Shown here piece after piece: positions 483 to 39,371 of a stretch of DNA of 43,838 nt. The stretch lies in the IMG/VR virus record IMGVR_UViG_3300045996_000511, positions 1 to 43,838 of that record; one strand, given 5' to 3'. The notes beneath the pieces are model-generated. The model was given only the letters and a program-made list of their open reading frames with translations, did not search any database and was not told the DNA's origin. A program made the translations under genes and the position numbers. The DNA comes from a virus. Within the stretch, counting starts at the first letter, position 1, and each line of letters opens with the position of its first letter.

Positions 483-507
483 GGCTTATAGATATTAGGG
501 TGGAAGG

Positions 508-523
508 GCGGCCGACCGGCCGC
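508..523 (+). repeat. NACY hairpin element, GACC loop
   Basis: GCGGCC-GACC-GGCCGC, a perfect 6-bp stem. The left flank is GGGTGGAAGG and the right flank AAGAAGTGGAG, which supplies the ribosome-binding region of the gene at 540. It lies between genes. Confidence 0.9.
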
Positions 524-539
524 AAGAAGTGGAGCGATC

Positions 540-1004
540 ATGACTGTCATCGCGTCTTGCCATCACACCCTGATGCCGGGCGAAGAAACGGTGTCGGTGC
601 GGTATGCCGATGAGGTCTGCGATGCGGTCGATGGCTTCAAACCGTGCGTCGTCTACGCCGAGTTCTGTCCGAAATGCGCCGCCGACTGGCAGGCGCGTGG
701 TTGGTTGCTGACTGCGGAACAGGCCGCGACTTTCCACCATCACGCAAATCATGGAGATGATATGACGAATTTAGTTCAGAGACTTCGAGAATTCCGATTC
801 GTTGACGGCGGTGAAAGCGAAGAGGCCGCTGCTGAGGCCCTATTAGGTGAAGCGGCTTCTGAAATAGAGCGACTGGAACGGAAGGCGGCGCTCGGGTGGC
901 AGCCAGATGTAACTGGAGTGGCCACCATCTCAGCTAACCCCGGGCGGCCGACCGGCCGCAGAAGGAGGAAGCCACGCGATGATACGCGACCCGCGCAAAC
1001 CTGA
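540..1004 (+). CDS. two-part small phage protein, possible fusion
   Basis: A 154-residue protein. The first 75 residues hold a cysteine/histidine-rich module (CHH near 7, CPKC near 43-46, HHH near 66-68). An internal methionine then begins a second module, MTNLVQRLREF, with the acidic helical EIERLE pattern seen in many phage early (Ead-like) proteins. This looks like a fusion of two genes that are usually separate, or a frame in which the second gene could also start alone (about 762). The C-terminus PGRPTGRRRRKP is encoded by a hairpin element at 944-959 and its purine flank. The end overlaps the next gene by 26 nt. The function is unknown. Confidence 0.65.
   Translation: MTVIASCHHTLMPGEETVSVRYADEVCDAVDGFKPCVVYAEFCPKCAADWQARGWLLTAEQAATFHHHANHGDDMTNLVQRLREFRFVDGGESEEAAAEALLGEAASEIERLERKAALGWQPDVTGVATISANPGRPTGRRRRKPRDDTRPAQT
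944..959 (+). repeat. NACY hairpin element, GACC loop
   Basis: GCGGCC-GACC-GGCCGC, identical in its 16 bases to the copy at 508. It encodes GRPTGR near the end of the gene at 540, and its AGAAGGAGG tail is the Shine-Dalgarno of the gene at 979. Confidence 0.9.
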
Positions 1005-1389
1005 CCCGGCCTATATGGTGCCCGCCAACAGCACACACCCCGCACACCAGAAAATGCGCAAGACGCTAGTGCTGCTCAAGATCGATACAAAGGAAGAGCC
1101 AGTCTATTTCGTCATAGAGGGACTGGCCGAATGGCCCATGACTGCGGCAGATCTGTGCGACAAAGAGCGCTTCTTCTATGAAGAACACACCTGCCCGACC
1201 AACTTCATCCGCATTCCGATGATCTGTCAGGGCGGTGATACCGACCCGCACGGCGTCTTCGAGTTCGTGGATGCGGTCTGGATGATGGACGAGTACGACA
1301 GCGAGGAAGCGAGCGAGTATCTGGCCGAGGTTTTCCCGCAGCTAGAAATAACCTTCTCAGCCCAGCCGGTCGGCCGAACTGCCCTCTAA
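979..1389 (+). CDS. hypothetical acidic phage protein
   Basis: A 136-residue protein with no recognised domain. Its start follows AGAAGGAGG, 13 nt upstream, supplied by the hairpin element at 944. A later methionine (MRKTLVLLKID) is an alternative start after a proline-rich leader. The middle is rich in aromatic and acidic residues. The last residues (QPVGRTAL) are encoded by a decayed hairpin copy. It is the last small gene before the homing endonuclease. Confidence 0.6.
   Translation: MIRDPRKPDPAYMVPANSTHPAHQKMRKTLVLLKIDTKEEPVYFVIEGLAEWPMTAADLCDKERFFYEEHTCPTNFIRIPMICQGGDTDPHGVFEFVDAVWMMDEYDSEEASEYLAEVFPQLEITFSAQPVGRTAL
1363..1376 (-). repeat. decayed NACY hairpin element (G-U wobble in stem)
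   Basis: On the minus strand this reads CGGCC-GACC-GGCTG, a 5-bp stem with one G-U pair and the same GACC loop as 508 and 944. It encodes the C-terminus of the gene at 979, a position like that of intact copies at 27937 and 36599. Confidence 0.5.
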
Positions 1390-1396
1390 AGCATAA

Positions 1397-26735: not shown

Positions 26736-26759
26736 TGCCTTGGATGTTGGATGGGTAGG

Positions 26760-26775
26760 CCGACCTACCGGTCGG
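26760..26775 (+). repeat. NACY hairpin element, TACC loop
   Basis: CCGACC-TACC-GGTCGG with left flank GGGTAGG and right flank AAGAGAAAA. It lies between genes in the regulatory gap, antisense to the leftward transcript, immediately after an attenuator-like hairpin. Confidence 0.9.
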
Positions 26776-26820
26776 AAGAGAAAATGCCGGGACCGATTAA
26801 GACCCCGGCTGGCTCAGCCT
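26776..26820 (-). terminator. attenuator-like pair of mutually exclusive hairpins
   Basis: In the leftward RNA, GGCTG-AGC-CAGCC comes first. GCCGGG pairing with CCCGGC across a 12-nt loop, then ATTTTCTCTTC, comes second. The last GCC of the first hairpin is the first GCC of the second, so only one can form. The second resembles a weak intrinsic terminator between the early and late parts of the leftward arm. Confidence 0.5.
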
Positions 26821-26844
26821 TAACTGAGGGATGATTTGACCTCG

Positions 26845-26879: not shown

Positions 26880-26929
26880 AACGTTCTGTCCCGCAGCGCT
26901 AGTGTGTTTTACTCTATGCTGCGAATGTT

Positions 26930-27136: not shown

Positions 27137-27402
27137 GTGTTTCCCGTGAAAATGTCTCGGAAATCCTGCTCGAACGTCTTGCGCAACGAGCAAAGCCAGT
27201 GCGTCGGCGGGTTGGGCCACGGCTTCTTATCGCTGCAATCAATCCAAGTGCCATTGTACGCGTCACACCAACCGACACCGAAGAACATGACGACTCCGTT
27301 GGGATCACCAGTGTCCCACCCCAGCAGCACTAGATCAGTCCAGCCCACATATTCAGGACGCTGATAGGTCTCGATCAACTTCCAGCGTAACGGCTCACTC
27401 AT
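27133..27402 (-). CDS. DUF551-like small phage protein
   Basis: An 89-residue protein with the start in an ATGA overlap. It is tryptophan-rich, ending with PWPNPPTHWLCSLRKTF, reminiscent of DUF551 proteins that end THWMPLPEPP. The family function is unknown. A better DUF551 example is at 35073. Confidence 0.55.
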   Translation of the reverse strand: MSEPLRWKLIETYQRPEYVGWTDLVLLGWDTGDPNGVVMFFGVGWCDAYNGTWIDCSDKKPWPNPPTHWLCSLRKTFEQDFRDIFTGNT

Positions 27403-27905
27403 GTGCAGTACCCATAATGACGAGCCAGGAGCGAAAGCCCCGAACGGATAGCCAGGGGAATAGCCCGCTTGTCCTCCCCTACTCGTCTGGCGATATTCTC
27501 AAAGCTGGTTGCGCCATCTTCCGAACTGCCCAGCACGAAAAGCGTGATGATGGTTTCAATCTCGGCCGGCAGATTCGACATAGCGGCCCTGAGGCGCCTG
27601 CTGGCGTCGATTGCGGAGTCGGGTATCTCGGTAGGCCCGCAACTGCTGCGAACGCCTGACGTGCCGCCGGAACGCGCGCCAGCCTCCATCTGGGATAGCT
27701 GGTAGTCCTCTTGCAGACGGTTGCCCGCTTCCCATTGGTGGCCTGCAATTTGTTTGCGGTCCCGCATGAAGGCCAGGCCATCAGGACGCCGCCATGCCTT
27801 TGGTGCGCCTGCTACGGTCGAGATTTCACGGTCTTGGACATAGGCGGTTGAAGGCCGGGCCGGGCCCTGGATGTCTTCTGGTTGGATGCGGTCGGGCTTG
27901 GTCAT
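27399..27905 (-). CDS. DUF6456-like phage regulator
   Basis: A 168-residue protein. The second half, ASRRLRAAMSNLPAEIETII then FENIARRVGEDKRAIPLAIR and LSLLARHYGY, resembles the DUF6456 domain found in alphaproteobacterial phages and some host regulators. The middle RKQIAGHQWEAGNRLQEDYQ is also typical. Its place before the early/late gap resembles that of lambda Q, but an antiterminator role is only a suggestion. ATGA overlap at the start. Confidence 0.65.
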   Translation of the reverse strand: MTKPDRIQPEDIQGPARPSTAYVQDREISTVAGAPKAWRRPDGLAFMRDRKQIAGHQWEAGNRLQEDYQLSQMEAGARSGGTSGVRSSCGPTEIPDSAIDASRRLRAAMSNLPAEIETIITLFVLGSSEDGATSFENIARRVGEDKRAIPLAIRSGLSLLARHYGYCT

Positions 27906-28342
27906 TCTACACCACCTTTTGAAGTAGGGTGGGAGGGCGACCTACCGGTCGCAGAAGGCGGAAGGCCCAGAGCGAACTTGGCGATGCCCTGCGCTTGGTT
28001 GAAGCACTCGGCTTCACCCCACTCGTTGTAACCGTTTGCGCTGTGCACTTCGGGATCGAGGGCAACAATTCTCGCCAGCGCGGCAGCCATGCTCAGTTTT
28101 AGCCACGCATCGCCATCGTCTGCGGCCGGTCGGCCGCCCTCCCCCTCTAACTCTCCAACAACAAATCTAACCTCTTCAATTAGTTTAGAAGTCCTAGGAG
28201 AAATCAAAACAGATTCCTCATGTATTGCTGATTTTAAACGGGCTATTAGTTCTGGAATGGGGGTCATGGCCTTAGCTCCGGAAAAGATGCGTTGGTCCAA
28301 TTCTGGTGGCGATATTGACGGGGCGAATGGGAGCGTAAACAT
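27902..28342 (-). CDS. hypothetical protein carrying two hairpin insertions
   Basis: A 146-residue protein. ATG at 28342 overlaps the replication gene stop (TAATG); another start, MTPIPELIARLK at 28267, has its own GGAG and may be the true one. The segment GEGGRPAADD is encoded by the hairpin at 28122, and the C-terminus ATGRSPSHPTSKGGVE by the one at 27937 with its flank. Between them WLKLSMAAALARIVALD and GEAECFNQAQGIAKFALGL form a helical domain of unknown role. Confidence 0.6.
   Translation of the reverse strand: MFTLPFAPSISPPELDQRIFSGAKAMTPIPELIARLKSAIHEESVLISPRTSKLIEEVRFVVGELEGEGGRPAADDGDAWLKLSMAAALARIVALDPEVHSANGYNEWGEAECFNQAQGIAKFALGLPPSATGRSPSHPTSKGGVE
27937..27952 (+). repeat. NACY hairpin element, TACC loop
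   Basis: GCGACC-TACC-GGTCGC with left flank GGGTGGGAGG and right flank AGAAGGCGGAAGG. It is antisense to the gene at 27902 and encodes ATGRSP in its C-terminal tail. The copy at 36599 has the same 16 bases and encodes the same residues in an unrelated gene. Confidence 0.92.
28122..28137 (-). repeat. NACY hairpin element, GACC loop
   Basis: On the minus strand GCGGCC-GACC-GGCCGC, identical to the copies at 508 and 944, with left flank GGGGGAGG. It lies inside the gene at 27902 in frame, encoding GRPA. Confidence 0.92.
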
Positions 28343-29259
28343 TACGCTGCACCTCTGTAATCGGGGGCGTACTTGCCGCGTTGTAAAGATCGATCTGTTT
28401 TGTCCGCCAATTCGGCCAATCGTTCCTCTGAGAAATCTGAGGCCGCCTCGGTCGAGAACCCGTTCCACACCTCGCCGCGCAGCCAGGTCGCCGCGTGCTG
28501 TTTGGGGTATTCTCGGTTTTGCTTTCTGGACTGATCAGCCAGCCACGAGTTGTAGCCTTCGACGGCGCGCAAAAGGTCTTTGAGGGGCGGCCTAGCCTTG
28601 GCAGTTGCGTTCCACGCGGCACGAGCGTCAGGCTTTTTCGAGTTTGGGGGGGGGGTGTAGGTTTTCCAGAACTGCTCAAACTCAGGATCTTCACCACGCA
28701 CGCAGCCCGCGTCAGCGGGCAGTGTTGGTTTGGATAAGGTTAGGTTAGGAGAAGGTAAGGGCTTCAACCCTTCGCCAAGGGTATCGAAACCGTCCCGCAA
28801 CAGTTGAATCTTGTTTTTCTCGTCGTCCGATACCCTGTATTTAGAGCCGTCTTTGCACATACGGTCCTCGCCAGCCATGGCGAGCAGCTCGTCGGCAATA
28901 ATTTGGCCGGCGGTGATGGCCCCGGGGAGTTCGGAAAGCTCCCGGGCGCACTTCCGCCAGACGTTTGGGTTCTCCGGGGGGTTGTGGCGCAGGAAGTTCG
29001 GGATGAAAATCCACGGTGTGCGCTCACAAGGCACGGCGTAACCGGCCTGGTGCAACTCGGCCAAGGCCCGTTCCAAGGATTTCTTGTCCAGCCGGGTATC
29101 ATTTAGGATGTAGGCGATGGGCAATCGGAAGCAACCGATGGCGTTCGTGTGTCTGGACGTGATCAGGTAAAGAGCCAGATAGTTGGCCTCAATCGACAAT
29201 TCACGCAGGGCGTCGTCATCCCAGAACTGCGCCCTCACCTTTCCGTAGTCGCGGGTCAT
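28342..29259 (-). CDS. phage replication initiation protein (O/DnaT-like)
   Basis: A 305-residue protein. The first 110 residues look like a winged-helix domain (KVRAQFWDDDALRELSIEAN, then ILNDTRLDKKSLERALAELH). The C-terminal part FEQFWKTY, AWNATAK, YNSWLADQ and YPKQHAATWLRGEVWNGF is the conserved tail of many phage replisome-organiser proteins. It likely binds the origin and recruits helicase. A run of 10 C encodes the PPP of YTPPPNSKK and is a possible slippage site. TGATG overlap at the start. Confidence 0.75.
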   Translation of the reverse strand: MTRDYGKVRAQFWDDDALRELSIEANYLALYLITSRHTNAIGCFRLPIAYILNDTRLDKKSLERALAELHQAGYAVPCERTPWIFIPNFLRHNPPENPNVWRKCARELSELPGAITAGQIIADELLAMAGEDRMCKDGSKYRVSDDEKNKIQLLRDGFDTLGEGLKPLPSPNLTLSKPTLPADAGCVRGEDPEFEQFWKTYTPPPNSKKPDARAAWNATAKARPPLKDLLRAVEGYNSWLADQSRKQNREYPKQHAATWLRGEVWNGFSTEAASDFSEERLAELADKTDRSLQRGKYAPDYRGAA

Positions 29260-29534
29260 CAGAACGCGCTCCCTGATACGGCCTTGCGAGCCTGCCGCCG
29301 GGCGGCCCGCTGCTCTTTCGTCTCACGTCTCAACCGCCTGATGCTGGCCTTCTCAAGGTGCTCCGTACCCCGCTGGGTGATCTCGACGCTCACCCGGATC
29401 ATGCCGCGAGCCGCCATGTTGCGAATGACGGATGGCGTGGCCGTGAACCCAATCTCAAGCATGTTCATGGGCCGGCCGATTTCAGTCAGCTTTGAGAGGA
29501 CGACGAAATGCGCGGTTTCGAGAGTAAGTTTCAC
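29259..29534 (-). CDS. small winged-helix-like protein
   Basis: A 91-residue protein. The GTG at 29534 overlaps the previous stop (GTGA). The sequence ETAHFVVLSKLTEIGRPMNM then TATPSVIRNMAARGMIRVSV and EITQRGTEHLEKA reads as a winged-helix DNA-binding domain with a very basic tail (RRLRRETKEQRAARRQARK). It is probably an early regulator. Confidence 0.65.
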   Translation of the reverse strand: MKLTLETAHFVVLSKLTEIGRPMNMLEIGFTATPSVIRNMAARGMIRVSVEITQRGTEHLEKASIRRLRRETKEQRAARRQARKAVSGSAF

Positions 29535-29770
29535 GACACCCCCTCCACCAAATGCAGCATGAGTAGTTCTTTGGTTTCTGGATCTGGTGCAGCGCGGTAG
29601 CGCTCCATGAACTCGTCGGCTTGATTGCCGGATAGGACTTTCATTTCCGCAATATCGGAAGCGCCCACGTACCAAGATATGCAAATCTCTCCTGGATTGA
29701 GCTGATCGCAATTCTCTCTGAGGTAGAAGTTGTGCGGAGTGCGGTCTGTCCAGAGTTCGTGCGCGTTCAT
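29531..29770 (-). CDS. hypothetical early protein
   Basis: A 79-residue acidic protein; the start lies in an ATGA overlap with the Dam-type methylase gene. It holds CISWYVGASDIAEMKVLSG and a helical EADEFMERY-like segment. No family is recognised. Confidence 0.6.
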   Translation of the reverse strand: MNAHELWTDRTPHNFYLRENCDQLNPGEICISWYVGASDIAEMKVLSGNQADEFMERYRAAPDPETKELLMLHLVEGVS

Positions 29771-30258
29771 GCTACCGCTCTCCATTCAGCGGGACAGATG
29801 CCCAGACCGCTTTTGCGAAGTGCCGTAACCGCTTCCTTGCCCATGGCTATAATGACGACGCCAGTCCCCGGCGAACCACCGACTGTGCCGTCCGGCCTTA
29901 CGAAGCGCGTCTTACCGCGTGGGAAAAGAACACAGTCGGCCTCGGGCATCATGTCTTGAAACCACTTTGCCGAAGTGCGCGCCGCTACAATTGCGATGCC
30001 GTGCCCGTGATCCAAGAACTTGCGAAGCCAAGGCACCTGGCCGTTACGTCCGCCCCATGGTGGATTCATGAACACAAGCCCCTCCCACTTCTGGGAAAGG
30101 CCATCATCCTCCTTCGTGTAGACGAATCTGGCGGGCACCCAATGACCCTTGCCGGGGGAGCAGGGGTCAAGATCAAAGCGCAGTTTCAGGGCCTCGAAAA
30201 TATCGCGCGGCGTGTACCACTCGTCCGATGCACCGATGCAGGGCTCATGCTCAGCCAT
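29767..30258 (-). CDS. phage DNA N6-adenine methyltransferase (Dam-type)
   Basis: A 163-residue protein. The catalytic NPPW motif is at 65-68 (VFMNPPWGGRNGQ), and DEWYTPRDIFEAL (12-24) followed by FDLDPCSP is the typical N-terminus of the phage Dam family. It transfers a methyl group from S-adenosylmethionine to adenine N6. No partner nuclease is near, so it probably protects phage DNA or changes regulation. It overlaps neighbours by 1-4 nt. Confidence 0.9.
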   Translation of the reverse strand: MAEHEPCIGASDEWYTPRDIFEALKLRFDLDPCSPGKGHWVPARFVYTKEDDGLSQKWEGLVFMNPPWGGRNGQVPWLRKFLDHGHGIAIVAARTSAKWFQDMMPEADCVLFPRGKTRFVRPDGTVGGSPGTGVVIIAMGKEAVTALRKSGLGICPAEWRAVA

Positions 30259-30656
30259 TATGCGCGCCTCCGCTGTGCGTCTCGGAATATCTGCTGGATC
30301 TCGGGCGAGACTTTGCGGGCAGTTGCCCGCCCTTTCCCAATTCCTATTTCTCGATGGTCAATGCCAGGATGGGTGGCGAGTAATAGCTTGCGTTTGATCT
30401 TGTACTCAGCAGTCTTGAAGCCCTTCACATCCTCGGTAACGGACATGCCATTTTCCAAATAACGGAAATCACCAACATAGGTGCAGACAACTTGTCCGTT
30501 GACGATCAGGGGAAAGCGCGGCTGTAATTCCAGATGGGTGATGATCCCTGCCCGCTGCAGGTTCGAAAGTTCACCGTATCTCGCTGCCTCTCGTTTCGAG
30601 GCGAAGCGAATGCCGTCCACATGTGTGGGTTTTGCAGCATACTTGCTGTAAGCCAT
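30258..30656 (-). CDS. DUF1064 nuclease-like protein with hairpin insertion
   Basis: A 132-residue protein. KYAAKPTHVDGIRFASKREA followed by ARYGELSNLQRAGIITHLEL and QPRFPLIV is the DUF1064 pattern, a restriction-endonuclease-like fold linked to Holliday-junction resolution in phages. FRYLENG...TEDVKG would carry the active-site acid and lysine. After this core the residues GRATARK are encoded by a hairpin element, in frame, before a short basic tail. Confidence 0.8.
   Translation of the reverse strand: MAYSKYAAKPTHVDGIRFASKREAARYGELSNLQRAGIITHLELQPRFPLIVNGQVVCTYVGDFRYLENGMSVTEDVKGFKTAEYKIKRKLLLATHPGIDHREIGIGKGRATARKVSPEIQQIFRDAQRRRA
30315..30330 (-). repeat. NACY hairpin element, AACT loop
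   Basis: On the minus strand GCGGGC-AACT-GCCCGC preceded by GGGAAAGG. It lies inside the DUF1064 gene, sense orientation, encoding residues in GRATARK. Compare DRATARRK in the gene at 34344. Confidence 0.92.
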
Positions 30657-30698
30657 TTATACCTTCGACAGCTACGCTCCGCCCAGAGCGACGATTAT

Positions 30699-30881
30699 TC
30701 AGATGCTATTGATGATTCCGATTGCGCCGAACACGGCCAGCGCGAACACAACGATGTTGGCCAGTAAGATTACCGGGATCGACCAATCGAACTTCGGCTT
30801 AGCCGGAGCGGGCAACAGATGGCTCGGCATGTAGACCGGATCCGAAACATGCGGCTTGCTGAGATAGATGATGTCACTCAT
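30699..30881 (-). CDS. small single-span membrane protein
   Basis: A 60-residue protein with a soluble N-terminal half (MSDIIYLSKPHVSD and so on) and one membrane helix (IPVILLANIVVFALAVFGAIGII) at the C-terminus. The ATG at 30881 overlaps the previous stop (ATGA). Role unknown; early membrane peptides often alter host envelope functions. Confidence 0.65.
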   Translation of the reverse strand: MSDIIYLSKPHVSDPVYMPSHLLPAPAKPKFDWSIPVILLANIVVFALAVFGAIGIINSI

Positions 30882-31063
30882 GAGCAATCTCCTCTGCGAC
30901 GCGCCTCTCTGTCGTTGAAGTGCCGAGGAAGATGCGCGTCGAAACGCTTCTCGGCTTTGTGGTTTTCCAGATCGCGGCGAACACGGGCGCGGGCATCAGC
31001 TAAGGCGCGGGTGTCGCAACGCTTGCGCTCAGGCTTCTGGATCGGACGCAGATGCAGCGTCAT
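30878..31063 (-). CDS. small basic early protein
   Basis: A 61-residue, highly basic protein (KPERKRCDTRALADARARVR and on). The start at 31063 is set by the ATGA overlap. It is probably nucleic-acid binding by composition, but no fold is recognised. Confidence 0.6.
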   Translation of the reverse strand: MTLHLRPIQKPERKRCDTRALADARARVRRDLENHKAEKRFDAHLPRHFNDREARRRGDCS

Positions 31064-31476
31064 GCGCGCACCTGTGAATTTCGTGGTGACATTGCAAACC
31101 AGTGCCACCACTGGCGGGCCTTGGAGGCGAGCCGCGCCGTGAAGCTGGGCGTACTAGGCGCGCCCAGTCCCTCAATAGCCGCCGCGACTTGCACTGTCTC
31201 GGAACGGCCCTTCGCTACCTGCGTAGCGTAGCCATGCAGCGCGCCGGTAACGCGCTTTATAATTGCTTCACGCGCCCGCATCTGACCACGTGTTGTCAGA
31301 TAGTCGGGATGATTGGCGAAGGTATCGCGGACCGCGCCGTCAACGATGCGCCAGATTTGTCGATGGGCATCGTCACGGGGCTTCAGGACCTTGACGCGGC
31401 GCCCGTGTGAACGAGGCGCGGGCGGGCGGTACAGACCTGAAAGCTTATGGCCGGAAAGATCAAGATTCCCCCTCAT
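31060..31476 (-). CDS. hypothetical early protein
   Basis: A 138-residue protein; ATG at 31476 overlaps the upstream stop (ATGA). The N-terminus is basic and proline-rich, then a helical domain (DDAHRQIWRIVDGAVRDTFA, REAIIKRVTGALHGYATQV). The C-terminus ends with ARQWWHWFAMSPRNSQ. Helix content suggests nucleic-acid or protein binding; unassigned. Confidence 0.6.
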   Translation of the reverse strand: MRGNLDLSGHKLSGLYRPPAPRSHGRRVKVLKPRDDAHRQIWRIVDGAVRDTFANHPDYLTTRGQMRAREAIIKRVTGALHGYATQVAKGRSETVQVAAAIEGLGAPSTPSFTARLASKARQWWHWFAMSPRNSQVRA

Positions 31477-31826
31477 GTCCCCACCCTCTGTGCAGCCTGG
31501 ATAAACTTGGCGAGCTGCGCCTGAAATTCTGGGTCGTGATCCTCTTCCAATAGAAGAAGCTTCCGAGCCCAAGCCTTGAATGTCGGATTTGCGTGATAGG
31601 CGTTTAGAAACGCCGTCAGCGACATGGGATTGTCTGCTGCAAACCAATTCTCTGCAGCGCGCGGCGAACTCGCGGAGTCCTGCGCTGCCGCCTTGTGCTT
31701 TGACGGATCGCCGTCATACGTCGCCTCAAGAACTTCCTTGAGCTTGTGGGCTACATCCTGGCTTCCCAGAACGTTTCGCGAATTGCCCCGGAATTTTCGG
31801 GCATATGGCCCGTGTGAAATGTGCAT
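31473..31826 (-). CDS. helix-turn-helix-like early regulator, first gene of the leftward arm
   Basis: A 117-residue protein. ATG at 31826 follows AGAGGG with 7 nt spacing. KHKAAAQDSASSPRAAENWF then MSLTAFLNAYHANPTFKAWA resembles small HTH-like proteins of alphaproteobacterial phages; the tail DHDPEFQAQLAKFIQAAQR is shared with them as I recall. As the promoter-proximal gene it may act like a CII-type or early activator. Confidence 0.65.
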   Translation of the reverse strand: MHISHGPYARKFRGNSRNVLGSQDVAHKLKEVLEATYDGDPSKHKAAAQDSASSPRAAENWFAADNPMSLTAFLNAYHANPTFKAWARKLLLLEEDHDPEFQAQLAKFIQAAQRVGT

Positions 31827-32065
31827 GTGGTTGCCCTCTAATGGTTGGGCAACGCGAGTATTTTCATAAAATGCAGATCGATTATTCAGGCAGGCAGAAG
31901 AAGACGGGATTGCAGTCCCGTTTAATGAATAAGCTACGGAGGCTTCTAAGAAGGACATCAGACCCGAGCCTCCATCCATTGATGGAACGGGCACTGGAGC
32001 GCGTAGCAGAGAAACAGAAGCGCCTCAGTCATGGCGGAAAGACCCCCGCACGAGACACGCGATGA
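31805..32065 (+). CDS. possible small protein in the divergent region
   Basis: An 86-residue frame starting MARVKCACGCPLMVGQREYF with CxCxC-type cysteines, then basic and amphipathic helices. It overlaps the start of the leftward operon by 22 nt and has a poor ribosome-binding site. The hairpin at 31904 lies within it. It may be real with a later start (31871), or the region 31827-32112 may be only regulatory. Confidence 0.4.
   Translation: MARVKCACGCPLMVGQREYFHKMQIDYSGRQKKTGLQSRLMNKLRRLLRRTSDPSLHPLMERALERVAEKQKRLSHGGKTPARDTR
31904..31921. terminator. hairpin, weak terminator candidate
   Basis: ACGGGA-TTGCAG-TCCCGT, followed by TTT on the plus strand. It lies in the divergent region and may separate the arms. 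A further 7-bp inverted repeat, GGAGGCT and AGCCTCC 22 nt apart, follows shortly after. Confidence 0.4.
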
Positions 32066-32114
32066 TGACGAACACGATGCCCGCCAGAACGATTGCGCCG
32101 GAGTGATCAAACAT
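32025..32114 (-). CDS. possible 29-residue membrane peptide
   Basis: MFDHSGAIVLAGIVFVIIAC, then LVRGSFRHD. One membrane helix, and GGGGGG 8 nt upstream of the ATG. Its start codon overlaps the start codon of the rightward gene at 32113 on the other strand (CATG). It conflicts with the plus-strand frame 31805-32065, so at most one may be real. Confidence 0.3.
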   Translation of the reverse strand: MFDHSGAIVLAGIVFVIIACLVRGSFRHD

Positions 32115-32346
32115 GGACCGAACCCCCCCGCTGACAGAGCCGGAAATCGTGCAATGCCTTTATGTCACCGGCATTGGGATTGAGATCGCCGATAGCGTCG
32201 TGCGCTTTGTTGGCTGGGTAAGTTTGCCGACGCTTGGCGGGGAAATGGACGAGAGGCGAATTGTGATGCGGTGCGCAATGTCCAACACCCAGGCGCGAAA
32301 TTTCTCTGCCGTGCTGAAAAAGGGCCTGACGCGGGGCGGCAATTGA
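32113..32346 (+). CDS. small conserved phage protein
   Basis: A 77-residue protein with GGAGTGATCAAAC before the ATG. The motif VRFVGWVSLPTLGGEMDERR followed by IVMRCAMSNTQARNFSAVL occurs in small proteins of alphaproteobacterial phages, to my knowledge without function. It is transcribed toward the immunity genes, opposite to the Cro-like gene. Confidence 0.6.
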   Translation: MDRTPPLTEPEIVQCLYVTGIGIEIADSVVRFVGWVSLPTLGGEMDERRIVMRCAMSNTQARNFSAVLKKGLTRGGN

Positions 32347-32428
32347 TTCAAAGTGTTGAGATTCAGAGCAATTGCGATGATTAATTTCTGGGCGTACGGT
32401 TCCCATTCTAGGGGCCGGAGAAACTACT

Positions 32429-32662
32429 ATGGATACGGGAGCGCTATTAGTTCCGCTCGTAGTTGCGTGGGCGCATTTGCAAGAGAGAAATCTGGGACGC
32501 AAACGATGCCGCAAAGAAGGCGTCGGCGGATTGATCCGCGAATTGGAACGCGACATTCCAATGAATGGCGTGGGGCCACATATAACAGCTCGACGCGAGG
32601 CGGCAGGGCTGCTGCGAAGGCATTGCGGCGTTTGTGGCAAGTGCCGGGAGTCGCACGAATAG
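32429..32662 (+). CDS. possible small cysteine-containing protein
   Basis: A 77-residue frame with GGAG 9 nt upstream of the ATG. The C-terminus has HCGVCGKC, a possible metal-binding site. It ends 2 nt before the stop of the convergent GIY-YIG gene, which suits two real genes meeting. The other plus frame through this region reads across the GIY-YIG gene and is probably not coding. No family recognised. Confidence 0.45.
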   Translation: MDTGALLVPLVVAWAHLQERNLGRKRCRKEGVGGLIRELERDIPMNGVGPHITARREAAGLLRRHCGVCGKCRESHE

Positions 32663-32663
32663 G

Positions 32664-32825
32664 TCATGCGCGGCCACCGATAAACGAATGCCACGGGATG
32701 CCGATCAGCGAAAGGCATGCGGCGGACCCAGTTTGGAGACACTTGAGTCTCTTGGAGACATCGTTCGTTACGCCAATCTTTATCGCGCCGTCAGTGCCAG
32801 ACTGAATGAAGTTCACGAAGCTCAT
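32664..32825 (-). CDS. miniature GIY-YIG-like protein coupled to the Cro-like gene
   Basis: A 53-residue protein. MSFVNFIQSGTDGAIKIGVT and NDVSKRLKCLQTGSAACLSL correspond to the first half of T5orf172/GIY-YIG domains, where the GIY and YIG strands appear as NFIQ and IKIG and the arginine helix as KRL. The second half with the catalytic glutamate is missing: the protein stops at FIGGRA. The start overlaps the Cro-like stop (ATGA). It is either a remnant or a small binding protein. Confidence 0.65.
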   Translation of the reverse strand: MSFVNFIQSGTDGAIKIGVTNDVSKRLKCLQTGSAACLSLIGIPWHSFIGGRA

Positions 32826-33040
32826 TGCGTCACCGGCTGCTGGGACGCTTCCCAAAACTTGTACAGGTCGGGCCCAGTGATCGCGCCATCGGTCTTCTCA
32901 GAGAGCTTGGCAATTGTGCCGGAGCTCGGCAGATGAACGCCGCGCTCGATACGGCTGACCGTTGGTTGGGAGACGCCAAGCTGAATGGCGGCCTCGGCCA
33001 TACTCAGCTTCGATTTGGTTCGCCACTGCTGAAGGTTCAT
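32822..33040 (-). CDS. Cro-like XRE-family regulator
   Basis: A 72-residue protein. The helix-turn-helix is at about 13-32 (MAEAAIQLGVSQPTVSRIER). The tail DGAITGPDLYKFWEAS is usual for short phage Cro/YdaS-type proteins. It is divergent from the repressor-like gene at 33134. Its promoter lies so close that transcription should begin at the ATG itself. It should repress at the ATACGTMA repeats between the two genes. Confidence 0.85.
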   Translation of the reverse strand: MNLQQWRTKSKLSMAEAAIQLGVSQPTVSRIERGVHLPSSGTIAKLSEKTDGAITGPDLYKFWEASQQPVTQ

Positions 33041-33049
33041 GCGCCAAAT

Positions 33050-33057
33050 ATACGTAA
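33050..33057 (+). promoter_or_regulatory. operator repeat 1, ATACGTAA
   Basis: First of three similar octamers between the divergent XRE genes. It overlaps the -10 of the leftward promoter. Confidence 0.65.
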
Positions 33058-33065
33058 GGCGAATG

Positions 33066-33073
33066 ATACGTCA
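33066..33073 (+). promoter_or_regulatory. operator repeat 2, ATACGTCA
   Basis: Second octamer, 16 nt after the first; it overlaps the -35 of the leftward promoter. Confidence 0.65.
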
Positions 33074-33083
33074 AGAGTATTTT

Positions 33084-33091
33084 ATACGTCA
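33084..33091 (+). promoter_or_regulatory. operator repeat 3, ATACGTCA
   Basis: Third octamer, 18 nt after the second. It lies upstream of the leftward promoter, on the side of the repressor gene, and may control the rightward one. Confidence 0.6.
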
Positions 33092-33133
33092 GGCGGACTC
33101 GTGAAGCGGGCAACTCGGGCGCAAGAATATTTC

Positions 33134-33451
33134 ATGGCAAAGAAGCGCAGACGCCGCCCCACCTTCATACGTGCATGGCGGAAATTCCGGGGCCTCACGC
33201 AAGACGAGTTGGCCGAAAAGCTAGATCTTACCCAGGCGACTATCGCCAGGATCGAGCGGGGGGATATCTCTTACACCCAGCCAGTCCTTGAGGCCTTGGC
33301 GGACGCCCTGCACTGCGAGCCGGCTGATCTGATCATGCGCGACCCTGGCAAACCCAATCCCTGGTCCCTCTTAGAGGGCGTTCCGGATGTCGATAAGCCG
33401 AAAATTATGCAGATAATTGAAGCCTTTAAGAGGACGGGAACTGAAAACTAG
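33134..33451 (+). CDS. XRE-family immunity repressor candidate
   Basis: A 105-residue protein. A basic N-terminus (MAKKRRRRPTFIRAWRKFRG) leads into an HTH at about 22-44 (TQDELAEKLDLTQATIARIE) and a typical XRE follow-up (QPVLEALADALHCEPADLIM). There is no S24 LexA/CI-type peptidase domain, so induction by RecA-driven self-cleavage is not expected. No Shine-Dalgarno is visible before the ATG. GTG at 33101 is an alternative start. Confidence 0.8.
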   Translation: MAKKRRRRPTFIRAWRKFRGLTQDELAEKLDLTQATIARIERGDISYTQPVLEALADALHCEPADLIMRDPGKPNPWSLLEGVPDVDKPKIMQIIEAFKRTGTEN

Positions 33452-33464
33452 CTGGGAGGCGAAT

Positions 33465-33779
33465 TTGCGCAAACTATTGATTTTACTTGCAATTCCACTA
33501 TCTGCCTGTGCCATGGCCAGCGACGTCATGGATACCGGGAATGGGACTTACCTGATCTCGGCTAGGGCTTCCCCTGCTCGTGGCGGTGCGGCCGGTGCCA
33601 ACCAGGTGGCCTACAAGGACGCTCAGACCTTCTGTGGGGCCAAGGGGCTTCGGCCTATCGTCATCACTGCCGACTCCCGGGACAGCACCCAGGCCTCGTT
33701 TGGAGGCTCTGGCGGGTCGTTTGGCGGCGGCGTGTTCCAAGCTGGTAACGCGGACCTCCGTTTCCGCTGCGAGCAGTAA
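33465..33779 (+). CDS. small lipoprotein downstream of the repressor (superinfection exclusion candidate)
   Basis: A 104-residue protein with a TTG start and GGGAGG 5 nt upstream. It begins MRKLLILLAIPLSACAMASD; LSAC (12-15) is a lipobox. The mature part (GNGTYLISARASPARGGAAG, then DAQTFCGAKGLRPIVIT) resembles small bacterial lipoproteins. Its place directly after the repressor implies expression in the lysogen, as for superinfection-exclusion or conversion lipoproteins. Confidence 0.75.
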   Translation: MRKLLILLAIPLSACAMASDVMDTGNGTYLISARASPARGGAAGANQVAYKDAQTFCGAKGLRPIVITADSRDSTQASFGGSGGSFGGGVFQAGNADLRFRCEQ

Positions 33780-33806
33780 CTAAGCCTAACCCTAAGATTT
33801 AGCGGG

Positions 33807-33824
33807 ACGAATATTTTTATTCGT
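33807..33824. promoter_or_regulatory. AT-rich palindrome
   Basis: ACGAATA-TTTT-TATTCGT, a perfect 7-bp inverted repeat just after the lipoprotein stop. It may be an operator or a weak terminator of the lysogenic transcript. Confidence 0.5.
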
Positions 33825-33841
33825 TACCCGTATCTTTTCGC

Positions 33842-33871
33842 TTGCACCCCTACATACGCTTGGCGTATATA
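33842..33871 (+). promoter_or_regulatory. rightward early promoter with internal operator
   Basis: -35 TTGCAC (33842-33847), 18-nt spacer, -10 TATATA (33866-33871). The spacer and -10 contain the palindrome ATACGC-TTG-GCGTAT (33854-33868), whose half-site resembles the ATACGT repeats by the Cro-like gene. The first gene starts at 33910 after GGAG, with a small hairpin ATCGC-CTCAC-GCGAT just upstream. Confidence 0.6.
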
Positions 33872-33909
33872 TTCTTCCATCAAATCGCCTCACGCGATGG
33901 AGTTGATGG

Positions 33910-34347
33910 ATGGGAACGCAAAGTAATTCGACAGACCGGCCAACTGGCCGGGTTCGCACCGATAGGTTGCTGAAGCTCGCGGACTTCCTTGAGACAGTGC
34001 CGCGCAAGAAGTTCGACATGCGCTCGTGGCAGAGGTCAGCTGCCGACAAGCCTGAGGGCCGCCGTCCAGGCGAGTGCGGGTTTGCTGGCTGCGCAGTTGG
34101 CTGGGCCGTGCATCAGAGGATGTTTCGCGGCCTCAAATTCATCCCGGACTGGTCGTGGGGCGGTGATCTAATCCCACATTACAACGGCCAAACGGAATGG
34201 CGCGCGATCACGGACCTATTCTTGATCGGATATGACGAGGCGTTTGGTCTATTTGGTCCCCAGACAGGCGGCACCCCCAAGCAAGTCGCCAAGCGTATCC
34301 GCAAGTTCGTCAAAGACCTTTCTTCCGACGCGGTAGCGGCGCCATGA
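33910..34347 (+). CDS. conserved phage protein, first gene of the rightward operon
   Basis: A 145-residue protein. RLLKLADFLETVPRKKFDMR followed by ECGFAGCAVGWAVHQ is a pattern seen in many small phage and bacterial proteins without known role. The N-terminal residues TDRPTGRV are encoded by a hairpin element. The end overlaps the next start (ATGA). Confidence 0.7.
   Translation: MGTQSNSTDRPTGRVRTDRLLKLADFLETVPRKKFDMRSWQRSAADKPEGRRPGECGFAGCAVGWAVHQRMFRGLKFIPDWSWGGDLIPHYNGQTEWRAITDLFLIGYDEAFGLFGPQTGGTPKQVAKRIRKFVKDLSSDAVAAP
33936..33951 (+). repeat. NACY hairpin element, AACT loop
   Basis: CCGGCC-AACT-GGCCGG, codons 9-14 of the gene at 33910, in frame. Left flank GACAGA, right flank GTTCGC, so the purine flanks are less complete than in other copies. 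Confidence 0.9.
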
Positions 34348-34631
34348 CCTCCACTACTCATATAGGGGGTGGGGTGGAAGACCGCGCAACTGCGCGGAGG
34401 AAAGGCCGACCGCTCAAAGGCGCGCCCGAACTGTTTGGCCGCGAGAAGCTGGCGCGGCTTGCCTACATCATGGGGCAGAACTCAGCGGCGCAGAAGGCTC
34501 TTGAGAATTTCGATGAGCGCGTGAGCCGTGGCGTCGCTACTGACTGCTACCTGTTTTGTGGGCGCGTGATTGTTGGCGACCCTATCCGTGGCCTTACTGA
34601 AGCCCTAGCGGCGTCTGAGCGGCTCCCATGA
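34344..34631 (+). CDS. hypothetical protein with N-terminal hairpin insertion
   Basis: A 95-residue protein. The start is in an ATGA overlap. The leader MTSTTHIGGGVEDRATARRK is encoded by the hairpin element at 34382 and its flanks; the conserved-looking body starts around RPLKGAPELFGREKLARLAY. GTG at 34371 could be an alternative start. No known family. Confidence 0.6.
   Translation: MTSTTHIGGGVEDRATARRKGRPLKGAPELFGREKLARLAYIMGQNSAAQKALENFDERVSRGVATDCYLFCGRVIVGDPIRGLTEALAASERLP
34382..34397 (+). repeat. NACY hairpin element, AACT loop
   Basis: CCGCGC-AACT-GCGCGG with the fullest flanks: GGGGTGGAAGA before and AGGAAAGG after. It encodes DRATAR near the N-terminus of the gene at 34344. Confidence 0.93.
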
Positions 34632-34873
34632 CCCTAGCAACCACCCTCTCCCACATACGAGATCACTACTCGATGAGTGATGACCAGTTAGCTCGTGAAG
34701 TCCGTCTGCAGAAGCAGTGGTTTGGAGCACTGGCAATCCTACGCTCTGCCGCTGCTGAGATTAATGCAGGGTCTTGCTGTGTCGAAGTCGATGCCGAGAG
34801 CCTGGAGAACTTCATTCATGACGAGTTTCCCGATCAAAACCTGTGGGACGAACGCATTCAGGAGAACAGGTAA
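34628..34873 (+). CDS. hypothetical protein
   Basis: An 81-residue acidic helical protein, MTLATTLSHIRDHYSMSDDQ and so on. ATGA overlap upstream, TAATG overlap downstream. No motif recognised. Confidence 0.6.
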   Translation: MTLATTLSHIRDHYSMSDDQLAREVRLQKQWFGALAILRSAAAEINAGSCCVEVDAESLENFIHDEFPDQNLWDERIQENR

Positions 34874-35073
34874 TGGCTGAGAAGATCGACAGCGGTTTTT
34901 GCTTTCTGGATGTGAAGCGCGGCCGCGTGAAGCTGGCCAAGCGGGTCAATACTGGTGAAGCGCGTATCCCGGTCACCATCCGAGGCTACATCACCGGCAT
35001 TTCCAGTCAGGATGACGGCACCTCAATCGAGTTTGAGGTCACCGTTTCCGATGCCGTCGAGAGGTTGCGGTAA
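34873..35073 (+). CDS. hypothetical protein
   Basis: A 66-residue protein with a beta-rich pattern (CFLDVKRGRVKLAKRV, then IPVTIRGYITGISSQDDG). TAATG overlaps on both sides fix its ends. Its first bases (ATGGCTGAG) repeat at the next gene start. Unknown function. Confidence 0.6.
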   Translation: MAEKIDSGFCFLDVKRGRVKLAKRVNTGEARIPVTIRGYITGISSQDDGTSIEFEVTVSDAVERLR

Positions 35074-35354
35074 TGGCTGAGTGGATGCCGATAGAGACAG
35101 CGCCGAAGGATGGGACGGTGGTGGACTGCTGGGTCGGCGGTGAATTTCCGACCCGGTACGAGAATTGTTACTTCGGCACTCCGCACCACGAATGTCTGTC
35201 TGAATATTGCGACTCCTGCCCGAGTGACCTGAAGGTCAAGGCTTGGCGGTGGTCATTCTGGAGCGAGCGCATCAAGCCAACCCACTGGATGCCGCTTCCT
35301 GAGCCCCCTTCTTCCTCCGGCCAGTTGGCCGGTCTTCCTACCTCATCCATATAG
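35073..35354 (+). CDS. DUF551 protein with hairpin-encoded tail
   Basis: A 93-residue protein. EWMPIETAPKDGTVVDCW at the start and THWMPLPEPP near the end delimit a DUF551 domain, common in phages and without known function. The domain normally ends at PEPP; here SSSGQLAGLPTSSI follows, encoded by the hairpin element at 35317 and its pyrimidine-rich flank. Confidence 0.85.
   Translation: MAEWMPIETAPKDGTVVDCWVGGEFPTRYENCYFGTPHHECLSEYCDSCPSDLKVKAWRWSFWSERIKPTHWMPLPEPPSSSGQLAGLPTSSI
35317..35332 (-). repeat. NACY hairpin element, AACT loop
   Basis: On the minus strand CCGGCC-AACT-GGCCGG, left flank GGTAGGAAGA and right flank AGGAAGAAGGG. It is antisense to and inside the 3' end of the DUF551 gene, encoding SGQLAG. 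Confidence 0.93.
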
Positions 35355-35368
35355 AGGAGAATAGATAG

Positions 35369-35551
35369 ATGGAACGAATTCGCTTCGACATCCTGATGTC
35401 AGCCAAGCCCGATTGCGGCGGCACGACACGCGAGCCGTCTCTGAACGAGATAATCCACAAATACTACAGCGCCCATTTCCCCGCAGCGGAGGCGTCTGGC
35501 TGCACCGCTGACTACATCGAAGCACTCGCCAAGTTCATAGGTGCGAAATGA
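35369..35551 (+). CDS. hypothetical protein
   Basis: A 60-residue protein preceded by GAGGAGAATAGATAG. The helix SLNEIIHKYYSAHFPAAEAS is followed by YIEALAKFIGAK. No family recognised. The stop overlaps the next start (ATGA). Confidence 0.6.
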   Translation: MERIRFDILMSAKPDCGGTTREPSLNEIIHKYYSAHFPAAEASGCTADYIEALAKFIGAK

Positions 35552-35745
35552 GCGACTCCAATCTCTCTCTACCTACTGAAAGTGAAAGAGAAGCTAGACG
35601 TAGGATGGCGGTTAGAAGGATTCGTAAGTCCGCCCAACTGGGCGGGCAGTGTCCTGACGGTGCCGAGAACGCCCTGCGTAACGCATTCGGGATCAGCGAT
35701 GCCTTCCTGAACAATCTGGCGGGAACGCCGCGAGGTGTCCTGTGA
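35548..35745 (+). CDS. hypothetical basic protein with hairpin insertion
   Basis: A 65-residue protein, basic in the middle (SEREARRRMAVRRIRKSA). The hairpin at 35630 encodes residues in SAQLGGQ, in the middle of the protein. It overlaps both neighbours (ATGA, GTGA). Role unknown. Confidence 0.55.
   Translation: MSDSNLSLPTESEREARRRMAVRRIRKSAQLGGQCPDGAENALRNAFGISDAFLNNLAGTPRGVL
35630..35645 (+). repeat. NACY hairpin element, AACT loop
   Basis: CCGCCC-AACT-GGGCGG, left flank AAGGATTCGTAAGT. It lies inside the gene at 35548 in frame. Confidence 0.9.
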
Positions 35746-35963
35746 GCAGTATCATCAACGAGGTGATAGCGGCCATTGGTTGCGTAGGCGGCGCGTTCCT
35801 GTTCATCGGAATGTTCCAGGTTGTCTTTGTGATGGCGTTTGGGTCGGGAGATTTACCCAACCCGCCACGGGCCATGTGGGTCGGTATGTTCTTGGGCCTT
35901 TGTGCAATTGTGGCCTTCGCGGTGAAGGAGGTCGTTGGCGAGGTATTTGGGTGGCGGCGATGA
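35742..35963 (+). CDS. two-span membrane protein
   Basis: A 73-residue protein with a GTG start in a GTGA overlap. Two hydrophobic helices (AAIGCVGGAFLFIGMFQVVFV and VGMFLGLCAIVAFAVKEVV) flank a short loop. An early-expressed inner-membrane protein of unknown function. Confidence 0.65.
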   Translation: MSSIINEVIAAIGCVGGAFLFIGMFQVVFVMAFGSGDLPNPPRAMWVGMFLGLCAIVAFAVKEVVGEVFGWRR

Positions 35964-36100
35964 CCATCTTCTTTCTCCGCGCAGTTGCGCGGCCTTACCG
36001 TCCTCATCTCCTCTCTCCCCACGCATGGAATATCCTAGGTCAATGTTTAGTAGGGGTGATGTTTGGAGTTGGAGTCTTTCTACTGGGATTTGGGGATTAG
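35960..36100 (+). CDS. small membrane protein with hairpin near its start
   Basis: A 46-residue protein, MTIFFLRAVARPYRPHLLSP then a helix LGQCLVGVMFGVGVFLLGF. The ATG overlaps the previous stop (ATGA). RAVARP is encoded by the hairpin at 35977. Two small membrane genes in a row suggest a shared site of action. Confidence 0.55.
   Translation: MTIFFLRAVARPYRPHLLSPHAWNILGQCLVGVMFGVGVFLLGFGD
35977..35992 (-). repeat. NACY hairpin element, AACT loop
   Basis: On the minus strand CCGCGC-AACT-GCGCGG, the same stem as the copy at 34382 but in the other orientation, left flank GACGGTAAGG and right flank AGAAAGAAGATGG. Confidence 0.92.
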
Positions 36101-36101
36101 G

Positions 36102-36117
36102 GCGCGGTACCCCGCGC
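36102..36117 (+). repeat. NACY hairpin element, TACC loop
   Basis: GCGCGG-TACC-CCGCGC. It lies between genes, right after the stop at 36100. The right flank AAGAAAGG is the ribosome-binding site of the gene at 36132. Confidence 0.9.
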
Positions 36118-36131
36118 AAGAAAGGTTGGCC

Positions 36132-36278
36132 ATGAGCGATAAGTTTGAAGAAGTTCACAAGGTGCCGTTGGAGCATGTCTGGCTCGTGGTCAGCGCCCTT
36201 CTGGACCACTGCGACGCCAAGCTTGAAAAGCGCGAGCATTTCTACGGCGAACCGGAATACCGGGTGGTGGCGAGATGA
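36132..36278 (+). CDS. small hypothetical protein
   Basis: A 48-residue protein, MSDKFEEVHKVPLEHVWLVV and so on. ATG at 36132 follows AGAAAGG provided by the adjacent hairpin element; the stop overlaps the next start (ATGA). Unknown function. Confidence 0.6.
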   Translation: MSDKFEEVHKVPLEHVWLVVSALLDHCDAKLEKREHFYGEPEYRVVAR

Positions 36279-36652
36279 GCGATTACCAGGCGATTTACGA
36301 CGCGGTTCGCAGCCGCATTCATGGTGGTGATGTTGGCTCAATCGCCCGAGAAGTGATGTGGCAGCAGTTCGACATCAGCCATCAGACTGGGATCGCGCTA
36401 CAGGAATTTCTCTACACCCAGGGCGAGCAACAGCGGCCATCCGTCCTGTTCAAGCCGACAATATCACTGGACGGCAATATGTACTGCGCCCTGTATGGGG
36501 AAGACCTGATGGAAGGTGTCGCGGGCTTCGGAGACACGATGGAAGCCGCCATGCGTGACTTTGACAAGAACTGGCGCGAACAGAAGGCACCAACTCCTGC
36601 GACCGGTAGGTCGCCCATCTCTCCCCCTAATACTAATCCTGTGGTGACGTAG
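36275..36652 (+). CDS. conserved phage protein with hairpin-encoded tail
   Basis: A 125-residue protein. The segment KPTISLDGNMYCALYGEDLM then GVAGFGDTMEAAMRDFDKNW is a pattern I know from small phage proteins, function unknown. After it the C-terminus PATGRSPISPPNTNPVVT is encoded by the hairpin at 36599 and its flank, nearly the same tail start as in the gene at 27902. Confidence 0.7.
   Translation: MSDYQAIYDAVRSRIHGGDVGSIAREVMWQQFDISHQTGIALQEFLYTQGEQQRPSVLFKPTISLDGNMYCALYGEDLMEGVAGFGDTMEAAMRDFDKNWREQKAPTPATGRSPISPPNTNPVVT
36599..36614 (-). repeat. NACY hairpin element, TACC loop
   Basis: On the minus strand GCGACC-TACC-GGTCGC, left flank GGGGGAGAGATGG, right flank AGGAGTTGG. It encodes ATGRSP near the C-terminus of the gene at 36275. 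Confidence 0.92.
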
Positions 36653-38673: not shown

Positions 38674-38996
38674 GCCGCTCCGAGTTTCCAGCCAAGGTAA
38701 AGCGCGCTGCTTGGGAGAGGTGCAAGGGCCTCTGTGATGGCTGCACCGCCAAGCTGTTTCCTGGCCGGTATCAATTCGACCATGACAGGGCTGATGGTCT
38801 GGGCGGCGAGCCCACGCTTGAGAACTGCAAAGTTCTCTGCACGTCATGTCATGGCGAAAAGACCCACAAGCACGACCGCCCGATTATGCAGAAGGCGGAC
38901 AACATCCGGGACAAGCACCTGAGCATCAAGAAGCCGTCCGGATTTCGTAAGCCGCCCCCTGGATACAACGCATGGACGCGGAGGATCGAGACATGA
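38670..38996 (+). CDS. HNH endonuclease
   Basis: A 108-residue protein. The HNH site is QFDHDRADGLGGEPTLENCK (Asp37, His38, Asn52), with zinc-binding pairs CDGC (22-25) and CTSCH (57-61). It nicks or cuts DNA; in this position it may serve recombination or packaging rather than homing. Coupled to both neighbours by ATGA. Confidence 0.88.
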   Translation: MSRSEFPAKVKRAAWERCKGLCDGCTAKLFPGRYQFDHDRADGLGGEPTLENCKVLCTSCHGEKTHKHDRPIMQKADNIRDKHLSIKKPSGFRKPPPGYNAWTRRIET

Positions 38997-39172
38997 CCAC
39001 TTCTACTCCGGGCAGTTGCCCGGTCTTCCCCACCAATAGCGTTACACCAACGCCTATCGGAATTGGTTCCTCCACCAATCGTCCGACTACTGAATATCGG
39101 TATTTCACCAATGAACAACACAATGCCGGCGCATCTGGAAATTTGCGCCATTCAATTCAATCTCAAAGTTAG
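38993..39172 (+). CDS. low-complexity small protein with hairpin near its start
   Basis: A 59-residue protein rich in Thr, Ser, Pro and Asn, MTTSTPGSCPVFPTNSVTPT and so on. The hairpin at 39008 encodes PGSCPV. The start is in an ATGA overlap. It may be little more than an element-derived reading frame. Confidence 0.45.
   Translation: MTTSTPGSCPVFPTNSVTPTPIGIGSSTNRPTTEYRYFTNEQHNAGASGNLRHSIQSQS
39008..39023 (-). repeat. NACY hairpin element, AACT loop
   Basis: On the minus strand CCGGGC-AACT-GCCCGG, left flank GGTGGGGAAGA and right flank AGTAGAAGTGG. Codons 6-11 of the gene at 38993. Confidence 0.92.
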
Positions 39173-39181
39173 CGAGCCGCA

Positions 39182-39361: not shown

Positions 39362-39371
39362 GGAGCCATCT

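Follow-up and report, generated by a model that had tools for sequence, protein, structure and literature searches.

Short palindromic repeats and the phage element

Short palindromic repeats that lie in frame within proteins are already known from bacteria, as Rickettsia palindromic elements (RPEs) and as intragenic repetitive extragenic palindromes (REPs). REPs carry a GTAG head and a GC-rich palindrome, are often associated with a RAYT gene, and measure 20-40 bp, mostly with a 6-9 bp stem and often with a 2-4 nt loop; some of the intragenic REPs lie at protein termini (PMC3733652, PMC2817692). In Rickettsia, RPEs have entered the genes of unrelated proteins in frame without breaking them (PMC10969869, PMC3733652). 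The reviewed RPEs are ~150 bp long and encode a conserved peptide, and the short RPE-4 and RPE-6 types end in CGTC (PMC3733652). Here, we analyzed the 43,838 nucleotides of the IMG/VR virus record IMGVR_UViG_3300045996_000511 (the window, which is the entire record) and found 14 copies of one ~49-bp strand-asymmetric element with a perfect GC hairpin. We assume, with a probability of about 0.5, that the copies form a family of short DNA palindromes carried by the phage, which works like REPs and RPEs, multiplied in this phage lineage, and survives where it does little harm. The literature searched held no report of such a repeat family in a phage genome.

The element resembles REPs in its GC-rich short-loop palindrome, its asymmetric head on one side, and the location of some copies in open reading frames (ORFs) and at protein termini. 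However, its head reads NAG-R instead of GT(A/G)G (positions -5 to -2 are GAAG in four copies, GGAG in two, TAAG in two, GTAG in one, and others in five), purine tracts lie on both sides, the stem is very variable, and the virus holds 14 copies as opposed to the tens to thousands of a bacterium. A RAYT gene was not found in the phage. The resemblance to RPEs consists in a palindrome in frame within unrelated proteins, whereas the phage element is ~49 bp long, is read in several phases, and lies mostly at gene edges rather than internally. The CGTC tag was found at the foot of 0/14 copies. As the palindrome and the behavior are present but the GTAG and CGTC tags are absent, the element is described as working like REPs and RPEs and is not classed as a member of either.

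Hairpins of other kinds were also compared. PMC4503421 (citing Arbiol 2010 and Comeau 2014) describes PeSL, promoter-stem-loop cassettes of T4-like phages that are repeated at gene boundaries of a variable region and linked to gene shuffling. The phage element shares the repeated stem-loops at phage gene boundaries; its copies differ in occurring also inside coding sequence and in both orientations, with no promoter match at the tested copies. A PeSL-like early promoter was rejected, as the promoter-like matches in 26500-39400 (sigma-70 consensus only) missed every copy there and were not more numerous than in shuffles. In the hairpin promoters of the N4 virion RNA polymerase, some stem bases are fixed and others are free but paired (PMC4496689). 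The phage element is likewise a small DNA hairpin with both kinds of stem base; it differs in its 4-nt loop and its two orientations relative to genes. The longest window ORF has 713 aa, hence the window encodes no N4-type virion RNA polymerase, and this promoter type was discarded. The target hairpin of diversity-generating retroelements was rejected as well, since the phage has no reverse transcriptase gene (no PF00078 match; the controls matched in three genomes). A comparison with Rfam gave 0 matches for the window at the gathering score and, for 33800-36700, 0 even when E was allowed to reach 1. Nematomorph mitochondria keep perfect inverted repeats of up to 284 bp in protein-coding sequence (PMC6649704). 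Those palindromes are likewise perfect inside coding sequence; there they are long, whereas the phage has one short repeated family.

Definition of the element family

The window was submitted to a systematic hairpin scan, and a covariance model was then built from the 14 copies themselves. The element consists of a G-rich purine tract, a perfect 6-bp GC stem (SCGNSS), the loop DACY (AACT, TACC, or GACC), the complementary arm, and the purine tail ARRARR. The purine tract ends in the head-like NAG-R, in which the G at -2 is invariant and the base at -3 is mostly A. Each copy is named after the lowest plus-strand base of its hairpin, and its orientation is that in which the loop reads DACY (508+, 944+, and so on). 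The copies are as follows, with the covariance score in bits at the end of each line.

Copy 508: 487..535, plus; GCGGCC-GACC-GGCCGC; intergenic; 47.0
Copy 944: 923..971, plus; GCGGCC-GACC-GGCCGC; C-terminal end of ORF 540-1004 (GRPTGRRRRK); 31.5
Probable decayed copy: 1349..1393, minus; CGGCC-GACC-GGCTG with one G-T pair; C-terminus of ORF 979-1389; recognized by eye against copy 28122; 12.4
Copy 26760: 26739..26787, plus; CCGACC-TACC-GGTCGG; between minus-strand genes; 42.3
Copy 27937: 27916..27964, plus; GCGACC-TACC-GGTCGC; antisense, C-terminal end of ORF 27902-28267 (ATGRSP); 44.1
Copy 28122: 28110..28158, minus; GCGGCC-GACC-GGCCGC; inside ORF 27902-28267 (EGEGGRPAADDG); 42.8
Copy 30315: 30303..30351, minus; GCGGGC-AACT-GCCCGC; 28-aa C-terminal extension of the DUF1064 protein 30258-30656 (GIGKGRATARK); 34.9
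Copy 33936: 33915..33963, plus; CCGGCC-AACT-GGCCGG; N-terminal part of ORF 33910-34347 (DRPTGR); 30.0
Copy 34382: 34361..34409, plus; CCGCGC-AACT-GCGCGG; N-terminal part of ORF 34344-34631 (DRATAR); 42.8
Copy 35317: 35305..35353, minus; CCGGCC-AACT-GGCCGG; antisense, C-terminal tail of the DUF551 protein 35073-35354 (SSSGQLAGLPTSSI); 44.5
Copy 35630 (weak flanks): 35609..35657, plus; CCGCCC-AACT-GGGCGG; middle of ORF 35548-35745 (RKSAQLGGQ); 31.6
Copy 35977: 35965..36013, minus; CCGCGC-AACT-GCGCGG; directly 3' of the stop of ORF 35742-35963, at the start of the possible ORF 35960-36100; 40.6
Copy 36102: 36081..36129, plus; GCGCGG-TACC-CCGCGC; intergenic; 36.6
Copy 36599: 36587..36635, minus; GCGACC-TACC-GGTCGC; antisense, C-terminal end of ORF 36275-36652 (ATGRSP); 40.9
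Copy 39008: 38996..39044, minus; CCGGGC-AACT-GCCCGG; directly 3' of the stop of the HNH gene 38670-38996; 44.8

The model, trained on these copies, scored them at 30-47 bits, and the next match reached 13.5. The element at 1349-1393 is likely a fifteenth, decayed copy, judging by its letters. The limits of the element are sharp: the similarity between copies stops at about -21 and +28, and beyond these positions their pairwise identity (0.25-0.27) is that of unrelated sequence (random 0.26). The window contains 18 GC hairpins with a 4-nt loop, compared with 4.5 in dinucleotide-model shuffles, and 14 of the 18 have AC at the loop centre (GT on the opposite strand), whereas any one loop type reached at most four in 200 shuffles. 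Two subtypes are distinguished by linked bases at positions that do not pair (-1, loop 1, and loop 4), a pattern expected when copies are related by descent. Copy similarity showed no relation to distance in the genome (Mantel P 0.42 and 0.56), and the neighbor clustering of the two subtypes gave P 0.08. The original prediction, which described hairpin elements inserted in frame at the ends of unrelated proteins, thus pointed to a real family with a single DNA element under the common residues; it listed six copies, whereas there are 14 plus the probably decayed one.

Stem pairing

All 84/84 stem cells of the 14 copies were Watson-Crick paired, without a G-T pair. Both partners had changed in 20 stem cells, and in no cell had just one partner changed, whereas the shuffle comparison gave 73% pairing and 7.1 double changes, and pairing fell to about 35% when the partner columns were slid by one. 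Swaps between C-G and G-C made up 17 of the 20 paired changes. Seven bases were invariant in 14/14 copies (G-2, C1, G2, A7, C8, C13, and G14), whereas pairs 1, 4, and 5 are freely exchanged. That each of the 14 stems is perfectly paired although the flanks have strongly diverged indicates that the hairpin itself is maintained, which would not be expected of a decaying selfish copy.

The loop-edge bases pair as well in 10/14 copies (A-T in seven, G-C in three), which leaves a 7-bp palindrome around AC. A two-base loop forms more easily in DNA than in RNA. Stem GC content was 83-100%, and the nine copies folded as DNA gave -6.5 to -8.3 kcal/mol. The antisense copies (27937, 35317, 35977, 36599, and 39008) scored 40.6-44.8 bits and the sense copies 30.0-47.0. 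The 7-bp palindrome with its two-base loop, the mixed orientation, and the equal upkeep of antisense copies favor a structure at the DNA level over one at the RNA level.

Placement in the genome and in proteins

Five copies lie at C-terminal ends of ORFs (944, 27937, 30315, 35317, and 36599), two near N-termini (33936 and 34382, whose true start codons are uncertain), two well inside genes (28122 and 35630), and five between genes (508, 26760, 35977, 36102, and 39008). The gene at 27902 houses two of them, 27937 and 28122. The hairpin centre was at most 50 nt from a gene boundary in 10/14 copies, compared with 4.9 expected (P=0.006), and 5/14 copies were intergenic, compared with 10% expected (P=0.008). 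Both tests used our own gene models and random placement within the element-bearing arms.

The reading phase differs between copies. GRATAR, DRPTGR, DRATAR, and GRPTGR come from one phase, EGGRPAA and KSAQLGG from another, and ATGRSP and SGQLAG from the other strand. This indicates that the DNA is conserved and that the peptide is a by-product and is not selected. It is true, as had been noted, that no copy interrupts a frame; however, this is weak evidence. A frame chosen at random across the element is open in 60% of cases on the purine strand and in 76% on the other strand (background 66%), and an element-borne stop merely becomes the gene end, as does the TAG inside copy 36102, which terminates ORF 35960-36100. 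This possible 46-codon membrane-protein ORF is framed by the inverted copies 35977- and 36102+, beginning at one and ending in the other. From their sequence and position, the purine tails of copies 508, 944, and 36102 probably serve as Shine-Dalgarno sequences for ATG 540, 979, and 36132; the candidate tails are AGAAGGAGG in copy 944 (ATG 979) and AAGAAAGG in copy 36102 (ATG 36132).

The shared residues were found where they had been described. The proteins at 27902 (minus) and 36275 (plus) both end in ATGRSP (..PPSATGRSPSHPTSKGGVE and ..APTPATGRSPISPPNTNPVVT), and the protein at 35073, which Pfam assigns to DUF551 with 24.1 bits over residues 56-79, ends in PLPEPP-SSSGQLAGLPTSSI. In the DUF1064 protein, whose domain match covers 4-96, GRATARK comes after the core, and DRATAR (34344) and DRPTGR (33910) lie near the N-termini.

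We then compared these proteins with homologues, and the element residues of the DUF1064, 36275, and DUF551 proteins proved to be terminal extensions without counterpart, as the original prediction expected. Of the eight DUF1064 homologues, six stop at most three residues from the core, one continues for about ten residues more, and one has a longer unrelated tail; GRATARK, the stretch with which the 28-residue extension begins in the window protein, occurs in 0/8. The only viral relative found for the 36275 protein (57% identity, residues 1-107) ends in ..APALQSQPKQGE, whereas the window protein ends in ..APTPATGRSPISPPNTNPVVT. The phiGT1 homologue of the DUF551 protein ends in PLPEAPALSHEGGE, compared with PLPEPPSSSGQLAGLPTSSI in the window. 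Homologues that keep the same residues without the hairpin, which would speak against insertion, were not seen. The homologues of the 33910 protein vary in N-terminal length ahead of a conserved RLLKLA motif, so the element sits in a tolerant region. Homologue searches with the 27902 and 35548 proteins, which carry the mid-gene copies, found none, and the 33910 and 30258 proteins gave no match when searched against whole genomes.

Distribution outside the phage

The family is absent from the relatives searched, among which near-identical records may be missing. The model search returned nothing comparable in the 80 contigs of related viruses from IMG/VR (best score 16.4 bits) or in 38 related phage and prophage loci (best 19.8 bits); the 20 genomes or records in which relatives occur yielded a single 26.8-bit match. 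The search of 385 genomes of alphaproteobacteria and 199 of the Bradyrhizobium family gave at most one match per genome at 26-33 bits, which we read as chance in GC-rich DNA. Scans of IMG/VR with exact and degenerate patterns (AACT and KACC types) gave isolated chance matches, none with a second copy. Single-element BLAST against phages returned matches in Gordonia and Rhizobium RHph_Y2_11 that were rejected as chance; in the 87 of 117 kb of RHph_Y2_11 that were scanned, the family was not found. The related loci were also checked for different hairpin families of their own, and none was seen. The absence from the 80 viral relatives and 38 loci points to a probably late gain in this phage lineage.

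Interpretation and alternative explanations

If the family works like REPs and RPEs, the element would have been duplicated within this phage lineage by DNA copying, possibly with an enzyme of the host. Copies would persist at low cost between genes, in C-terminal tails, and near N-termini, and some may have been locally exapted as a stop codon or a Shine-Dalgarno sequence. The hairpins may stay perfect through selection on DNA structure, through template-switch correction, or both. That the copies spread and are filtered by selection on proteins, as originally proposed, is no more than plausible; the edge bias would agree with it, and the stems are too perfect for decaying junk.

Several results weigh against this explanation. 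The mean flank identity between copies is ~39%, yet every intact copy has a perfect stem, and more broken copies than the one visible decayed copy would be expected of a family that is purely selfish and unselected. No Y1 (RAYT-type) transposase was detected in the phage with PF01797, which matched the controls in five genomes. The structural block 1400-26700 (~25 kb) holds zero copies (P about 5e-6 under uniform placement), and a filter on protein function accounts only partly for this absence from 25 kb of structural genes. The family was missing from any host or relative searched. Finally, the related genomes offered no empty site, no polymorphic copy, and no target-site duplication of the kind that a MITE leaves, because the collections lack a close relative.

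The alternative that survives best, tentative as it is, takes the copies as fixed functional sites of the early or accessory region, at which a phage or host protein recognizes the hairpin when it is extruded as a cruciform or in single-stranded DNA. Such sites could serve replication, recombination, or early transcription, among others. The loop AC, pairs 2 and 3 (C-G/G-C), and the flanking G and A would be read as bases, and the other pairs would need only pairing. Seven invariant bases beside freely swapping pairs 1, 4, and 5 have the look of a recognition motif and follow the logic of the N4 early promoter hairpin (PMC4496689); the copies are confined to the non-structural arms, and orientation is immaterial, as for a DNA site. 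However, the spacing is irregular, copies occupy coding sequence, one gene has two, relatives of the same genome plan have no equivalent, and no candidate binding protein was identified. A further reading is a little more doubtful: a virus-specific palindrome family recognized as an extruded DNA hairpin, in which a phage protein reads the loop AC and selected stem bases while the rest only pair. In that case, the family would represent a new mobile palindrome of viruses, moved by an enzyme of its own, or else a new kind of dispersed DNA-hairpin signal to whose encoding the early proteins have adapted.

A signal at the RNA level, such as a processing, translation, or antitermination hairpin in early mRNAs, appears unlikely. 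The perfect stem, the conserved loop, the Shine-Dalgarno-like tails of 508, 944, and 36102, and the many copies near stop or start codons would suit it, but the copies take both orientations to transcription with antisense scores as high as those of the sense copies, there are no G-U pairs, and no Rfam family matched. An intrinsic terminator was rejected, as 0 copies were among the 18 terminator-like matches (GC stem plus T run) in 26500-39400. Two GC hairpins outside the family, at 28705-28720 and 26786-26809, fit the intrinsic-terminator pattern.

Still less probable is a mutational origin in which template switching during replication (quasipalindrome correction) creates and perfects the palindromes, without mobility or function. 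Template switching is reported to make and repair perfect hairpins and can account for stems that stay perfect (PMC8794818), and the C-G to G-C swaps among the paired changes have no possible G-T intermediate. However, the common loop DACY, the purine flanks, and the two subtypes are left unexplained, and an inversion of the loop relative to the flanks, expected sometimes, was seen in 0/14 copies. Chance GC-rich hairpins selected by eye, conceivable in a window of 58% GC where short hairpins are common, can be regarded as refuted by the 14 copies of one loop type, the covariance gap from 30.0 to 13.5 bits, and the lack of copies in related sequence totalling about 1.7 Mb.

With its 14 copies in 44 kb, this virus would make it testable how tiny palindromes spread, and whether their stems remain paired through selection or through replication errors that re-copy one arm onto the other. 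The family also illustrates how small viral proteins can acquire terminal tails.

Genome context

The virus is temperate and podovirus-like, with genes for an integrase, a DnaD-like helicase loader, and an Erf-type recombinase. Its large terminase is nearest to those of IMG/VR contigs (at most 78-80%), a Kaistia prophage (75%), and Bradyrhizobium prophages (69-71%). The 127 bp at the two window ends (1-127 and 43712-43838) are identical, either as a true terminal repeat or as a circular-assembly overlap.

Repeated ATACGT(A/C)AGGCG-like sites lie near the divergent XRE repressor genes (32822-33040 minus and 33134-33451 plus), and the palindrome ATACGC-TTG-GCGTAT lies upstream of the 33910 gene.

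33047-33095 and 33854-33868: ATACGT(A/C)AGGCG-like sites and palindrome

These sites and the palindrome are probable operators of the lysis-lysogeny switch, and the strongest minus-strand promoter-like matches fall among them. HNH nucleases are encoded by two free-standing genes, at 1520-2035 and 38670-38996, and one of the two has an AP2 domain. Both genes adjoin element copies, the former near copy 944 and the decayed copy at 1349, and the latter near copy 39008.

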